Assembly: GCA_022361135.1 (NCBI GenBank)
Contig: JAKSBM010000278.1
Span: 1 to 7,509, forward strand
From: Desulfobacterales bacterium
GTDB taxonomy: Bacteria > Desulfobacterota > Desulfobacteria > Desulfobacterales > Desulfobacteraceae
DNA: 7,509 bases
Reading direction: 5' to 3'
The notes beneath the pieces are model-generated. The model was not told the DNA's origin, did not search any database, and was given only the letters and a program-made list of their open reading frames with translations. A program made the translations under genes and the position numbers. Shown in pieces: positions 2,580 to 7,509 of this stretch (the first letter of the stretch is position 1; the number at the start of each line of letters is the position of its first letter).

Positions 2580-3140
2580 CTATTTGGGTGTGGGAAAGAT
2601 AAAGCCCTTGGCGGCCAATTCTTCCTTGGACAGGGCTTCCAGTTCATGGGGGAGAACCAGCCAGTCCGAAGGGGCGTAGGTTCTGTAGTGGAAATCCGGT
2701 GTGATGTCCACCTGGTTGTTCTCCGGCTTGTAGTAGAGGGCTGCCATTTTTACATCTTCCTTATTGCAGTCCACCTGGGCCAGGACTTCTTCGTAGACGG
2801 CCTTGAAGGTTTTTCCCCGGTCAAAGATATCATCCACGATGAGGAGACGTTTGCCTTTTTCCATGCGCCGTTTCAGGGAATCCAGATTTTCCACCACCAC
2901 TTCTCCGGCCTGGGCGATACCGGTGTAGGACTGGGCATGGATGGTGGTGAATTCCTTGGACTTGCCCGAAAGGAGGGCAAAGACCTCCTGCATGTAAATG
3001 GAAATCTGGGCGCCGCCCCGGGTGATGCCGGAAAGGATGTCAAAGTCTTCTCCGGCGGTGAAGATCTTTTTGGCAAATCCCCAGCAATCCCTTTCCATTT
3101 GAAGGGCATCAATAAATATTTTTTCGTTAACCTGGCTCAT
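2580..3140 (-). CDS. Predicted purine-type phosphoribosyltransferase (Hpt/Gpt-like)
   Basis: A 186-residue soluble type I phosphoribosyltransferase (PRTase). The family transfers a phosphoribosyl group from PRPP to a nitrogenous base, usually in purine salvage. The hallmark PRPP-binding loop is at residues 99-111, LLIVDDIFDRGKT, with the adjacent acidic pair Asp103-Asp104. The pyrophosphate loop is GITRGG at 38-43. The segment SDWLVLPHE (158-166) fits the C-terminal Trp-plus-Pro base-binding region of hypoxanthine/xanthine PRTases and of the uncharacterised Hpt-like group. Arg108 sits where many family members have Thr in the PRPP loop. The ATG at 3140 is chosen for its GGGAG ribosome site 6 nt upstream; the stop is TAG at 2580-2582. 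The gene is framed by terminators on both sides and so probably forms its own transcription unit. The fold is clear; the base specificity (hypoxanthine, guanine, xanthine or other) is not. Confidence 0.92.
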   Translation of the reverse strand: MSQVNEKIFIDALQMERDCWGFAKKIFTAGEDFDILSGITRGGAQISIYMQEVFALLSGKSKEFTTIHAQSYTGIAQAGEVVVENLDSLKRRMEKGKRLLIVDDIFDRGKTFKAVYEEVLAQVDCNKEDVKMAALYYKPENNQVDITPDFHYRTYAPSDWLVLPHELEALSKEELAAKGFIFPTPK

Positions 3141-3278: not shown

Positions 3279-3309
3279 ACTGCCCTCCGGGAGGGTCCCG
3301 GAGGGCAGT
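3279..3309 (-). terminator. Intrinsic terminator of the multidomain lipid synthase gene
   Basis: A perfect 14-bp stem, ACTGCCCTCCGGGA at 3279-3292 with its exact complement at 3296-3309, closes a 3-nt GGG loop. On the minus strand it begins 38 nt after the synthase stop codon and is followed by TTTTATGGGG, a short U-tract. It should end the synthase transcript and insulate the phosphoribosyltransferase gene. Confidence 0.88.
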
Positions 3310-3347: not shown

Positions 3348-6300
3348 TTACGATGAAAGTGTTTCTTCGGCGGCCGGGGATTTTTTTTCTACCCCTGCCG
3401 GTACAAAGGCCACACCGAAATCCTTCATTTCATAGATGCAGATGCCGTCCACCACCAGGGCTCCGTCGGCCTGGACCGCATAGGCGGTCTGACCGTCCCC
3501 GGAGACTTCCTTTTCCAGTCCCTTGATGTGGGCATGGATCTGGATCTTTTTATTCTTGGGAATAATCTGTCCCCGGTAGATCCATTCATGGGATTGGCGG
3601 GTCTGCATTTGGGCTTCCAGGGCCTGGGGATCGATGCCGAATTTTTCCTTGAGGAAGAATCTCAGCATCTGGAGGAAGGATTCCACCCCCAGGGAACCGG
3701 GGCAGACCGGATCCTGGTAAAAATGGGCGTGGAAGTACCATTCATCGGGATCCACCATTTTATGGGCCCGGATATATCCCTTGCCGTGGATGCCGCCTTC
3801 GCTTTCCATGGCATCAATGGCGTCGATCATGCGCAGGGCCTTGGCGGGCATTCCCTTGTTTTCCCCGATTTCGGCATCCGCCGGAGTCAGGGGGGGCAGG
3901 GCTTCAAAGGTGTGAACCTGGCCGTCCTTTTCCGGCATTTCTTCGGGCCGGGGCACCAGTTCCGATTCCCGGATTCCCACCTGATTGGCCAGGGCTTGGG
4001 AGGAGAAAAATCCGAAATTGGTGGTGCCTTGGTAGATCATGCCGTCCTTGGACAGGACTTCCATGTCAAAGTTCTGGATGATCATGCCCCCGGCCTGGGA
4101 TACCTCGGTCATGCGGCTGCGCATGGTCAAGGTGCCGGTGTCCGGGGTGACCTGGCGGGTGAGATCGGCCTTGCCCCCCAGGTTCCTGAAGTGGAGGCGA
4201 TCCGATGAGGTCAGGGCGGAGCCGGCATAGGCCGCCAGCCAGCCACAGGGCTGGAGGGCGATTTCCAGGAGGATGCAAAAGGGCATGGTGGGGGAATGGT
4301 TGGCCTTGAAGTACCAGGCATCGGCCGGAACCTCATACCGGGCTTCGATCCAGCCCCCGGCTTTCATTTCCCACTGGGGATGGTCGGCCCTGAGGACCTC
4401 ATCCATGAAGAAATAGGGCGGCCGGGGCAGCCGGGCGATTTCCCGTTCCGAATCAAAGACCTTGTAAGCCGGTCCGAAGGCATCGGAGGGATTGCCCTGG
4501 GCAAAGGCCAGGATCCGCTCCCGGTCAAAGGCCGGTGCCGGGTTGAACTTTTCCTGAAGGGCCGGATCAATGATGGCTTCAAAGCCGGTGATACTGGCCA
4601 CCACCACATTGTCCTGGGTCAGGAAGGTGAAATAGCCCTTGAGCTTATATTCACTTTCTTCATTGACGGTGAAGACGATGCGGATCTTATCGGTTTTGGG
4701 ATCCAGATTTTCATAGGAGCTGTAACATCTCAAATTGGCCACATAGGCGGGCAGGCAAACCTGTTTCCGGTTTTCCCAGGTCCAGAGGATGGCCGCCTGG
4801 AAGGCCGCATCCACCATGAGGGGATCCAGGGTCCAGCTGGTGTTCATGGGCCGGGTCATCCATTGGGCCGGGGCAGGGGCCAGGGCCGTGACCACCTCGA
4901 TGCCCTTGGAAGAAACCCCGGTGATGCCTTCAATGCCCTGGAGGGCCGGGCCGTGGAAGAGAATCTCTTCATAGGCTTTTTCAGCATCAAAGGAGCAGGG
5001 GCCCAATTCCATGAAGGCGGCCTGGGAAAGAACCGGTGGGGCCGGCAATTGATTTTTCAACAGGCAGGTGCCGTTCATGTGGCGCAGGGTTTTCTCCCCC
5101 GTGGTGGTGGAAAGTTCGGCCGCCACCTTGAATCCGGTTTCTCCGGGTTTGCATTTCCCCAGGCTGAGATCCAGCTCCATGGTGCCGCCATCGGGGATCA
5201 CCCCTTTGAGAAGACGCACATCGTCCATGCCGGCAAAGGTGAGTCCGGGGTTGTTTTTCTCCGCCCCCATGGCCATGAGTTCCGTGAGCAGGGCAAAGGG
5301 AACCACACAGGACTTATCAATGCGGTGGGCATCCAGAACCGGGGCCTGGGAAATGCCCATGGGCTGGGTCAGGGTCTTGGACAGCACCGGGGGTTTCACC
5401 GGATGGTCGGAAGGGGTAAGGCCGGCGCCGATGACAATTTCAACGGAGTTGGCTGAATTTCCCATTTCCAGGGCCATCTGCCGGGCTCCCCCGGCCAGGG
5501 GAATGAGTTGGATTCCCTTGCGGGTGAATTCCTTTTTCAGGCTGGGATTGACCATGCCGCCGTCCCAGGGACCCCAGTTCAGGGAGAGGTAACGGCAGTC
5601 GGGATTGTCCAGGGTGAGTTTCTGGGCCACCTTATTCAGGACTTCGTTGGCCATGGCATAGTCGCATTGACCGGTGTTGCCGCCCCGGGCCGCCACAGAG
5701 GAAAAGAAAACCACATATTTCAACGCATCTGCCGCCGTGGCAGACAGCAGAACCGAGAGGCCGTCCACTTTTGTGGAAAGCACCCGTGAAAAGGCTTCGG
5801 GGGCCTTGTCTGCAATGAGCTTGTCCTCCAGGACACCGGCACCGTGGACCACCACGGTGATTTCACCGAAGTCCTTTCGCACCTGGGCCAATGTGGCTTC
5901 CAGGGCCTGGGGATCCCGGACATCGGTGCTGTAGTAATTCACCCGGGAACCGGCCTGGGCAATGCGGGCCATGTTCCGGTGGATTTCCCGGTTGGAGATG
6001 ATTTCCCGGTACCGTTTTTCCAATTGGGCCGGGGTGATCTTTTCCCCTGCAAATTCCTGTGCCAGGATTTCCTTTTTCAGGGCTGCGCCTTCAATGGCCG
6101 ATGCCCATTTGGGTTCGGCACCGGGTTCGGGGGAGCGACCCAACAGGGCAATGGCCGGAGAACCGGACTTTGCCAGTTCCAGGGCACATTCCGCAGTCAC
6201 GCCCTTGGCTCCACCTGTGATGACGATGGTGTCCCGGGTATTCAATTCCACGGGGGTATTGTCCAGGGTATGGGGAACCAGGGTGGGGATGTGGCAGTCC

Positions 6301-7509
6301 GAGCCGGTGAGGCCCATTTCCACTTCGCCATGGATCATGGTCAGGGCTGCGGCGGCTTCGGCCTGTGCCAATGATTGGGTGGGGTCGTCCGGCAGGTCCA
6401 GGGCCCGGCAGAGCACATTGGGCCATTCCAGGGCTGCGGTTTTGGCCAGTCCGGCCATGCCGCCATATGCGGGGGATGTGGCAAAGCCCTTTCCGTCAAA
6501 ACCGAATTTACCCCCCAGGAAGGAAACCGTGGTGAAAAAAGCCCCGTTTTCTTCGGCGGCCGTGGCCAGGTGGGCTGCATTTTTCCGGGCCAGGCAGAAG
6601 GCGGCGGTGAGAAAATCACTGCCCTTTTGGATTTCCTGGGAAATGGCCCGGGCGTTATCCCATGGTGCCGATGCATCAACATCGGGTTGGACAATGATGA
6701 GGCCGGCCGCATCGGAGAATTCCGGTGTGTCCTCCGGGGTGGCGGGCAGGTCAAAGAGCTGGACCGGAATTTCCAATTTGGCAAATTCATCGGCCAGTGC
6801 TTGGGCCATGCCGGCACCATCCCGGCTGATATAGACCTTGCGGTCCTCGGCCAGGTGGATCCGTGCCCCGTTGAAGAAGCGGACTTCATTGGTGGAGAGG
6901 GTGTTCAGCCGGATCTCCCTGGAGAGGAGATCCGGCTCATCTAAAGGGAGGGACGCTTCGGAGCGTGCCTCCTTATTATCCTGGGGATCTAATTGGGGAT
7001 CATCCCCATTGAATGGCGTTTTTTTTTTTTCGGCTGCCGTGTCGGCAGTCGGTGGGGTCACCGTATCCAGAAAGTTGACCATGTCGCCGATGGTCTTGAG
7101 TCGGGCCATGTCGTCCGGCGCCATGGGCGGGGCGTCCTTGAGCTCCTGCTCCAGCCGGGAAAGGATTTCCACCCGTTTGATGCTGTCGATGCCCAAATCG
7201 GACTCAATGTCCATTTCCGGTTCCAGCATGTCCACGGGAAAACCGGTAAGATCGCTGATGATGGCCGAAAGAACCGTCATGACTTCACCACCGGCCGGGG
7301 CTGCATGGGAGCTGCCGCCGTTGACCGGTGCGGCCTGGGCCGCGGGTGCCTCTGCCGGAGCGTCACTGCCTTCAATGACCTGGCAGATGTCGGCCAGGGT
7401 TTTCAGGGTGCCCATGTTATCGGTGGCTACACCGGGGCGGTCGGGCAATTGTTTTTCCAGTTCGGAGCTGATTTCCACCCGTTTGATGCTGTCGATGCCC
7501 AGGTCGCAT
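3348..7509 (-). CDS. Pfa-type multidomain lipid (PUFA-like) synthase, PfaA-like ACP-KR-DH fused to PfaC-like FabA dehydratases (5' truncated)
   Basis: The 3' part of a giant type I iterative fatty acid/polyketide synthase gene; 1386 residues are visible (residue 1 at 7508-7506) and the start lies beyond the window. Order: tail of an ACP (1-47; carrier Ser7 in DLGIDSIKR), Ala/Pro linker, full ACP (76-150; Ser109 in DLGIDSIKRVEIL), charged linker, pseudo-KR (195-410), catalytic KR (425-650; TGGAKGVT at 431-438, Lys580, Ser604, Tyr617, Asn621), PKS-type DH (710-985; His728, HGPALQGI at 852-859, Asp900 and Gln904 in DAAFQ), then two FabA-like domains (about 990-1175 and 1205-1365). The second keeps HFYQDPVCPG (His1262) and LGVESFLQ (Glu1276); the first has a shortened NHSPTMPF and LLEIALQPCG (Glu1082). 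KS and AT would be expected upstream. ACP-KR-DH matches the end of PfaA, the FabA pair the end of PfaC. It should reduce and dehydrate ACP-bound chains in the cytoplasm. The product is unknown. Confidence 0.93.
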   Translation of the reverse strand, partial: CDLGIDSIKRVEISSELEKQLPDRPGVATDNMGTLKTLADICQVIEGSDAPAEAPAAQAAPVNGGSSHAAPAGGEVMTVLSAIISDLTGFPVDMLEPEMDIESDLGIDSIKRVEILSRLEQELKDAPPMAPDDMARLKTIGDMVNFLDTVTPPTADTAAEKKKTPFNGDDPQLDPQDNKEARSEASLPLDEPDLLSREIRLNTLSTNEVRFFNGARIHLAEDRKVYISRDGAGMAQALADEFAKLEIPVQLFDLPATPEDTPEFSDAAGLIIVQPDVDASAPWDNARAISQEIQKGSDFLTAAFCLARKNAAHLATAAEENGAFFTTVSFLGGKFGFDGKGFATSPAYGGMAGLAKTAALEWPNVLCRALDLPDDPTQSLAQAEAAAALTMIHGEVEMGLTGSDCHIPTLVPHTLDNTPVELNTRDTIVITGGAKGVTAECALELAKSGSPAIALLGRSPEPGAEPKWASAIEGAALKKEILAQEFAGEKITPAQLEKRYREIISNREIHRNMARIAQAGSRVNYYSTDVRDPQALEATLAQVRKDFGEITVVVHGAGVLEDKLIADKAPEAFSRVLSTKVDGLSVLLSATAADALKYVVFFSSVAARGGNTGQCDYAMANEVLNKVAQKLTLDNPDCRYLSLNWGPWDGGMVNPSLKKEFTRKGIQLIPLAGGARQMALEMGNSANSVEIVIGAGLTPSDHPVKPPVLSKTLTQPMGISQAPVLDAHRIDKSCVVPFALLTELMAMGAEKNNPGLTFAGMDDVRLLKGVIPDGGTMELDLSLGKCKPGETGFKVAAELSTTTGEKTLRHMNGTCLLKNQLPAPPVLSQAAFMELGPCSFDAEKAYEEILFHGPALQGIEGITGVSSKGIEVVTALAPAPAQWMTRPMNTSWTLDPLMVDAAFQAAILWTWENRKQVCLPAYVANLRCYSSYENLDPKTDKIRIVFTVNEESEYKLKGYFTFLTQDNVVVASITGFEAIIDPALQEKFNPAPAFDRERILAFAQGNPSDAFGPAYKVFDSEREIARLPRPPYFFMDEVLRADHPQWEMKAGGWIEARYEVPADAWYFKANHSPTMPFCILLEIALQPCGWLAAYAGSALTSSDRLHFRNLGGKADLTRQVTPDTGTLTMRSRMTEVSQAGGMIIQNFDMEVLSKDGMIYQGTTNFGFFSSQALANQVGIRESELVPRPEEMPEKDGQVHTFEALPPLTPADAEIGENKGMPAKALRMIDAIDAMESEGGIHGKGYIRAHKMVDPDEWYFHAHFYQDPVCPGSLGVESFLQMLRFFLKEKFGIDPQALEAQMQTRQSHEWIYRGQIIPKNKKIQIHAHIKGLEKEVSGDGQTAYAVQADGALVVDGICIYEMKDFGVAFVPAGVEKKSPAAEETLSS
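7019..7030 (-). repeat. A12 homopolymer inside the synthase gene, in the ACP-KR linker
   Basis: Twelve consecutive T on the plus strand give A12 in the coding strand, read GAA AAA AAA AAA ACG (Glu-Lys-Lys-Lys-Thr, visible residues 160-164). It sits in the hydrophilic linker between the last ACP and the ketoreductase. Removing one A brings a TAG after twelve altered codons counted from the first Lys. Adding one A brings a TGA after about ten. Any slippage here would therefore end the protein just after the ACP array. Confidence 0.85.
7164..7501 (-). repeat. ACP-array direct repeat: two 32-bp identical boxes 306 bp apart
   Basis: A 32-bp box at 7164-7195 is repeated without mismatch at 7470-7501. 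On the coding strand it encodes the phosphopantetheine attachment motif GIDSIKRVEI of each ACP. The 306-bp period equals 102 codons, one ACP plus linker. At least two ACPs are therefore present, and the array probably continues past the window end, as in PfaA-type synthases where several ACPs stand in tandem. Such near-identical units are prone to recombinational gain and loss, and to assembly collapse. Confidence 0.9.

Follow-up and report, generated by a model that had tools for sequence, protein, structure and literature searches.

A PfaA-type synthase chain from Desulfobacterales that carries, on sequence evidence, one of the two FabA-type dehydratase units of PfaC

Introduction

In PUFA synthases, the choice between dehydratases on different subunits is believed to determine where double bonds are set. 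A 7,509-nucleotide stretch of DNA from a Desulfobacterales bacterium (contig JAKSBM010000278.1; hereafter the window, meaning the whole stretch analysed) raises the question of how dehydratases are shared out where both types lie on one chain. An earlier interpretation of the letters alone, the sequence-only reading, had proposed a PfaA-like ACP-KR-DH module joined in one polypeptide to the FabA-like dehydratase pair of PfaC. It set this against a classical split in which PfaA ends in KR-DH and the FabA-like pair sits on PfaC behind KS-CLF. The available text of PMC13291983 gives that same canonical order, KS-AT-ACP-KR-DH for PfaA and KS-CLF with two DH/I for PfaC. At issue are which part of PfaC the chain carries, where the rest lies, and whether the junction is real.

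Results

The window encodes the C-terminal part of a PfaA-type chain

On the minus strand, a single frame of 1386 aa is open from position 7508, at the window edge, as far as a stop codon at 3348–3350; the coordinates in the sequence-only reading are correct. The features are as follows.

3348..7508, minus strand: PfaA-type megasynthase, last 1386 aa, 5′ end outside the window (frame, Pfam and TIGR02813)
7374..7508, minus strand: ACP 1, partial, LGIDSIK at residues 3–9 (motif, without a Pfam match; end boundary approximate)
7068..7271, minus strand: ACP 2, residues 80–147 (Pfam PF00550; LGIDSIK at residue 105)
5562..6230, minus strand: ketoreductase (KR) core, residues 427–649 (Pfam PF08659; S603/Y617/N621)
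4554..5351, minus strand: PKS-type dehydratase, approximately residues 720–985 (Pfam PF14765 match at 843–977; H728, D900; outer boundaries approximate)
3939..4553, minus strand: His-less FabA-family pseudo-domain of the DH2 unit, approximately residues 986–1190, E1082 kept (Pfam, residue columns, hotdog in the model; end approximate)
3426..3848, minus strand: core FabA-type dehydratase of the DH2 unit, residues 1221–1361, H1262 and E1276 (Pfam PF07977; predicted fold)
3279..3309, minus strand: terminator-like hairpin 3′ of the gene (consensus match only)

Pfam matches on the chain were to PP-binding (6.8e-15, one stretch), KR (1.1e-34), PS-DH (4e-11) and FabA (3.3e-46, two stretches). The best NCBIfam match was TIGR02813 (PfaA) over residues 267–988, at 479.8 bits against a cut-off of 1010.1, the score of a fragment. 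The catalytic residues of KR (S603/Y617/N621), PKS-type DH (H728/D900) and core FabA domain (H1262/E1276) were intact in all 19 aligned proteins, and two ACP motifs were present in 12 of the 16 that displayed any (range 1–4, some proteins being truncated). The window chain is the ACP-bearing part of a PfaA-type protein, in the order ACP (partial)-ACP-KR-PKS-type DH, followed by two FabA-family hotdogs. The hairpin at 3279–3309 suggests that the fused gene is the last in its operon.

The remainder of the window carries, on the plus strand, two tandem long-chain acyl-CoA synthetases of the PRK08316 type (1–771 and 826–2472), which are 75% identical over 255 aa and represent a tandem duplication. 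A phosphoribosyltransferase with weak HPRT/XPRT likeness, under the NCBIfam cut-offs, lies at 2580–3140 on the minus strand.

Full-length relatives carry KS and AT and are mostly preceded by PfaD

Relatives were taken as the best 80 of 536 confirmed stretches from a genome scan, with L001–L036 being fused or split carriers, some of them cut by contig ends. The sequence-only reading had proposed a domain search of the full-length protein and a search for a neighbouring PfaD-type enoyl reductase, and both were made in relatives. In the complete relative L002 (2483 aa), Pfam gave KS-AT-ACP-ACP-KR-DH-FabA, and the chain scored 1395.7 bits with TIGR02813, above the cut-off of 1010.1. L002 thus has KS, AT, tandem ACPs and KR in this order in one chain; the window itself has ACP-ACP-KR. 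A PfaD-family reductase (622 bits) precedes the L002 chain. Such a reductase lies upstream in 19 of the 22 loci that include the gene start and upstream DNA, and was not found upstream in the other three (L030, L034 and L035). The partners assigned to the window chain are candidates, drawn from the genomes of relatives.

Desulfobacter vibrioformis (L017) has the chain as two proteins, KS-AT-ACP and KR-DH-FabA-FabA, with overlapping frames. Frame lengths suggest the same split in L030 and L034–L036. A 1418-aa frame in which Pfam finds no domain (L017:318–4571) lies directly before pfaD in this species.

The two FabA-family hotdogs appear to form one dehydratase unit

The sequence-only reading had counted the end of the chain as two dehydratases, FabA-DH1 and FabA-DH2. 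Two FabA-family hotdogs are indeed present, but the first does not qualify as a dehydratase of its own. At its catalytic-His position, assigned by a shared W-[YF]-F-x-A/C-x motif, all 30 fused-chain rows have N, A or G (26, 3 and 1, respectively). In the window a His occurs one residue past the expected position, in a column that is itself variable (R in 15, H in 11, and others). E1082, H1262 and E1276 were invariant in the same 30 rows and in 44 of 44 second units. One further row, L019_fus, proved to be an ole-linked unit under a wrong label; it is identical to L085_ole, from the same genome (G012). It is excluded from the fused-row residue counts and from the window-identity medians given below, though present in the tally from which the second-unit residue count was taken. 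As the first hotdog lacks the catalytic His, it is best regarded as a pseudo-domain, the two hotdogs together making up one dehydratase unit. The candidate of two catalytic FabA dehydratases in a row was dropped for the same reason. His-less hotdogs in FabA-like DH of PUFA synthases have reportedly been described by Oyola-Robles and colleagues.

An AlphaFold model of residues 986–1386, built from 16 sequences, predicted a double hotdog with a mean pLDDT of 84.2 and a pTM of 0.85 (model spread 69.8–84.2). The top PDB match of the modelled unit was 2cf2_C, titled as the DH part of the mammalian FAS architecture (TM 0.65/0.75); the matches ranked below it were mainly crystal structures of FabA. 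No solved structure was named as a PUFA-synthase FabA unit among the sequence matches listed (60 of 95). According to the available text of PMC9667614, each FabA-like DH of a PUFA synthase is a double hotdog, made up of a long pseudo-domain and a core domain, and units of this kind can complement fabA in E. coli. The pseudo-domain described in that text lacks the acidic residue, whereas in the fused chains here the His is absent and the Glu is kept.

The fused unit resembles the second FabA-type unit of PfaC

Comparison with loci L037–L080, where both units occur, identified the type of unit carried by the window chain. In 43 of these 44 loci, the first unit resembles the one found beside ole genes (438–575 bits in the 39 complete ones, four being truncated) and the second resembles that of the window (387–453 bits). 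Cross-matches between the two types reached 18–110 bits. The remaining locus, L062, has a single unit (186 bits). Median identity of the window unit was 60.6% to 29 fused rows and 51.5% to 44 second units, as against 23.9% to 40 first units and 23.2% to 12 ole-linked units.

A tree built from 83 of the 127 units agreed with these scores. First-type and second-type units were separated at 100/100. The 30 fused rows formed one clade (100/94) beside the second units, while the 12 ole-linked units, together with the mislabelled identical row, formed one clade (100/100) among the first units. Support for joining the fused clade with four particular second units was weak (83/84). Together, homology scores, identities and tree suggest that the second PfaC unit was transferred, apparently once, from the KS-CLF protein onto the ACP-bearing one. 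Frame, Pfam, unit homology and tree thus bear out the fusion of a PfaA-like ACP-KR-DH module with PfaC-derived FabA-type hotdogs in a single chain. They do not bear out the transfer of the whole PfaC dehydratase pair: the chain holds one of the two PfaC units, and in relatives the other lies on a separate protein. As judged from these comparisons, the PfaC dehydratase set is split between two subunits.

The first unit lies on a KS-CLF protein beside oleABC

Partner loci were examined in 12 fusion genomes that had been selected because FabA also matched in a separate frame. The partner protein is 1341–1470 aa long in the 10 loci where it is uncut. Two partners were scanned with Pfam; each gave KS and one FabA stretch, together with a second KS-like domain without the active-Cys motif, as in CLF. 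No AT domain scored above the reporting limit in these two proteins; the available text of PMC12895367 describes PfaB as the terminal acyltransferase. Directly after this KS-CLF-DH1 protein, oleA, oleB and oleC follow in 12 of 12 loci, and in L083 PfaD comes directly after oleC. A linkage between pfa-like clusters and ole genes was noted by Shulse and Allen 2011 (PMC3098273, available text).

The fused and partner loci are mostly unlinked, but a few genomes have them close together: G046 and G047 at a distance of approximately 12.5 kb, G043 at 27 kb and G012 at 8 kb. Given the general lack of linkage, joint action of the two proteins is something that we infer.

In L081–L088, a protein of approximately 244 aa lies between oleB and oleC (L082:13166–13897, with equivalents in L081 and L083–L088). 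Two copies were scanned without a Pfam match and one without an NCBIfam match.

The junction recurs throughout the family

The distribution of the junction was examined in 63 genomes, at least 85% complete, of the family of Desulfobacter vibrioformis (G011). The DH-to-FabA junction occurs in one frame in 56 of them: 47 by one alignment over approximately residues 6–670 of the 687-residue query, eight by shorter alignments that cross the junction, and G061 by two alignments in one frame. Four further genomes (G020, G021, G032 and G033) match the FabA part alone and lie outside this count. The other three (G031, G037 and G052) gave no match to the junction query at E 1e-60. Several junctions sit millions of bases into a contig, and the junction is also present in many other records.

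The window is a short contig, as might be expected if an assembly or binning artefact had fused the end of pfaA to the end of pfaC, and the sequence-only reading had named two genes joined by assembly error as the case that would overturn it. That case is excluded by the recurrence of the junction in 56 of 63 genomes. With the positions deep within contigs and the many other records, the probability of an artefact is vanishingly small. On the sequences compared, the fusion is a genuine rearrangement found across the family, and represents a variant of the Pfa kind rather than a separate category.

Carriers of the junction lack recognisable FabF

Fatty acid synthesis genes were scored in 22 fusion genomes, picked without regard to completeness (G018 has 1.5 million bases), and in eight others. 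With nearly all candidates scored, FabF over the cut-off was found in none of the 22 and in all eight of the others. In the family sample, no genome of 63 had FabF over the curated cut-off, with near misses of 474–486 bits in G007, G015 and G053; scoring covered at most 24 candidates per genome (at most 11 in the order sample), so that a FabF could be missed. In the order sample of 154 genomes, 128 had FabF over the cut-off. A junction-spanning match occurred in six (G011, G013, G016, G019, G035 and G092), none with FabF over the cut-off. Another 20 genomes without a spanning match, including the family members G020 and G032, also had no FabF over the cut-off, so that a lack of FabF is not in itself specific.

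None of the 22 fusion genomes had a stand-alone PF07977 protein with a score of at least 120 bits, compared with six of the eight others; weaker short-frame matches (23–66 bits) occurred in several fusion genomes. At E 1e-9, stand-alone FabA/FabZ was identified in six of the 63 family genomes (G007, G011, G044, G045, G058 and G071). This count takes short-frame matches in G014, G050, G055 and G059 as broken or cut pieces of pair-bearing genes, on the basis of oleA beside the match in G014 and the fused gene on the same contig in G050 and G055, with no such basis for G059. AcpP was over the cut-off in 20 of 22 fusion genomes and eight of eight others, and FabH in all 30 genomes (22 of 22 fusion genomes).

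FabD was over the cut-off in one fusion genome of 22 and in seven of the eight others; in frames under 400 aa, the counts were 1/22 and 4/8. As a marker for FAS II it proved weak, since three of the seven outgroup matches (G023, G024 and G030) fell in frames of 1,100–3,800 aa. E. coli FabI was set aside as non-discriminating, having matched one genome of 30 and none of the eight with FabF. In E. coli, pfa genes are reported to complement the loss of fabD (PMC8174602, available text).

A second, giant type I synthase accompanies the fused chain

The search for FabD also brought up a second type I synthase of approximately 3,900 aa, with frames up to approximately 4,200 aa. In L094 (257–11740) and L095 (2786–14575) it comprises an NMO-type ER, KS, KS, AT, a KS-like stretch, ACPs, KR and a PKS-type DH, the last being under the cut-off in L095. 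One of eight fetched loci has accC beside it. The middle part of this protein was present in 61 of 63 family genomes and in none of the eight FabF-bearing genomes, and among nine further genomes it occurred in four (G010, G019, G089 and G092; absent from G088, G157, G158, G162 and G170). The idea of the fusion as the sole FAS was dropped on account of this giant synthase. G037 has the giant synthase, yet it lacks the fused chain and gave no match to PF07977 at E 1e-9. This indicates that the chain is dispensable or that the G037 genome is incomplete.

Discussion

A possible mechanism and its rivals

The window chain is probably the PfaA-type, ACP-bearing subunit of an iterative lipid synthase that is Pfa-like except that the second FabA unit of PfaC has been relocated to the end of PfaA. 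In such a system, KS-AT would elongate the chain on the tandem ACPs and KR would reduce it. The PKS-type DH would then give a trans-2-enoyl product, to be reduced by PfaD. In an alternative branch, the FabA unit in cis would dehydrate and isomerise to a cis alkene. The KS-CLF-DH1 protein would join for further rounds, and OleABC would condense the chains into long olefins. We infer that the products would be unsaturated chains for olefins and perhaps for membranes; as relatives have no FabF and mostly no stand-alone FabA/FabZ, the fused chain may supply unsaturated membrane acyl groups as well. According to the available text of PMC7791843, tmp genes of Desulfobacter postgatei and Desulfobacula toluolica placed in E. 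coli convert palmitoleic acid to 10-methylenepalmitic acid. This is consistent with a requirement for cis-monounsaturated precursors.

The sequence-only reading had assigned all post-condensation steps short of enoyl reduction to the fused chain, with a bare KS-CLF or KS-AT protein as partner. KR, PKS-type DH and a FabA unit do lie in cis. However, the full-length relative L002 has KS and AT on the same chain, and the partner found is a KS-CLF protein that carries the first FabA unit, in both PfaC-like partners scanned, beside oleABC. This version of events therefore seems very improbable. Somewhat more can be said for the fused chain and PfaD as a self-contained type I FAS that makes the bulk membrane fatty acids. 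Between them they carry KS, AT, ACP, KR, DH and ER; the FabF, PF07977 and short-frame FabD counts run in the same direction, and a core role was proposed by Shulse and Allen for Type S of D. autotrophicum (PMC3098273, available text). Against this stand the better conserved giant synthase, with its absence from FabF-bearing genomes, the presence of that synthase without the fused chain in G037, and the FabH and AcpP that fusion genomes retain. A core FAS of this composition is thus unlikely. From its distribution, the giant synthase would be the likelier core FAS, or source of saturated chains, with the fused chain adding FabA-type unsaturation.

An extension of the preferred reading, a Pfa-like synthase with a relocated second unit, can be offered as a tentative possibility. 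The family may have dropped FAS II elongation and come to make its membrane chains by type I megasynthases. The giant enzyme would provide saturated chains, while PfaD and the fused chain would provide an anaerobic cis-unsaturated route, enabled by the move of DH2; KS-CLF-DH1 would serve olefins with OleABC. The family offers a natural experiment, with one FabA unit on the ACP chain and the other on KS-CLF, so that each role could be read from the products. With no FabF over the cut-off in 63 of 63 genomes and stand-alone FabA/FabZ absent from most, the source of known sulfate-reducer lipid biomarkers also becomes directly testable.

Comparison with known systems

The canonical Pfa (omega-3 PUFA) synthase PfaABCDE, Types A and B of Shulse and Allen 2011, shares with the present system the PfaA order KS-AT-ACP(n)-KR(-DH), a PfaD-family ER, and FabA-type units made up of pseudo-domain and core. 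It differs in that both FabA-type units are on PfaC, whereas here the second is on PfaA and the first alone is on the partner. Canonical Pfa has 4–6 ACP motifs, as against mostly two here (range 1–4). On the two KS-CLF proteins scanned here, no AT was found.

The Type S organism, Desulfobacterium autotrophicum, is presumably of the same bacterial group as the fused-chain carriers. Shulse and Allen 2011 distinguished 20 types, and the available text (PMC3098273) lists Type S for D. autotrophicum, reports that this organism has neither fabA nor fabZ, and suggests Type S as its core synthase. The lack of fabA and fabZ in strain HRM2 is shared with most relatives here, in a comparison made by text only. 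The suggestion in the sequence-only reading that the layout may already be catalogued could thus be right, Type S being the candidate. No recognised paper in the open-licence literature named the fused layout or a type I FAS in the family of G011, which does not imply that none is in print.

PfaBC-type proteins of other Desulfobacterota with ole genes resemble those of Types C, I and K, a likeness that is not a type assignment. They come with homologous PfaA, PfaD and FabA units and, as here, the KS-CLF protein has ole genes beside it in many loci. In these lineages KS-CLF, DH1 and DH2 lie in one protein, mostly of 2,100–2,500 aa where complete, with a weak AT match that was under the Pfam cut-off in the two scanned; in the system described here no AT was found on the partner and DH2 has moved. 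The order of first unit followed by second unit also occurs on Azospirillum, Persicobacter and Streptomyces plasmids. Two-unit PfaC-like proteins were encountered, too, in MAGs labelled Phycisphaerae/Planctomycetota, Acidobacteria and Eremiobacterota (L049, L055, L056, L061, L065, L066, L070, L071 and L073), several of these loci having ole genes or PfaD nearby.
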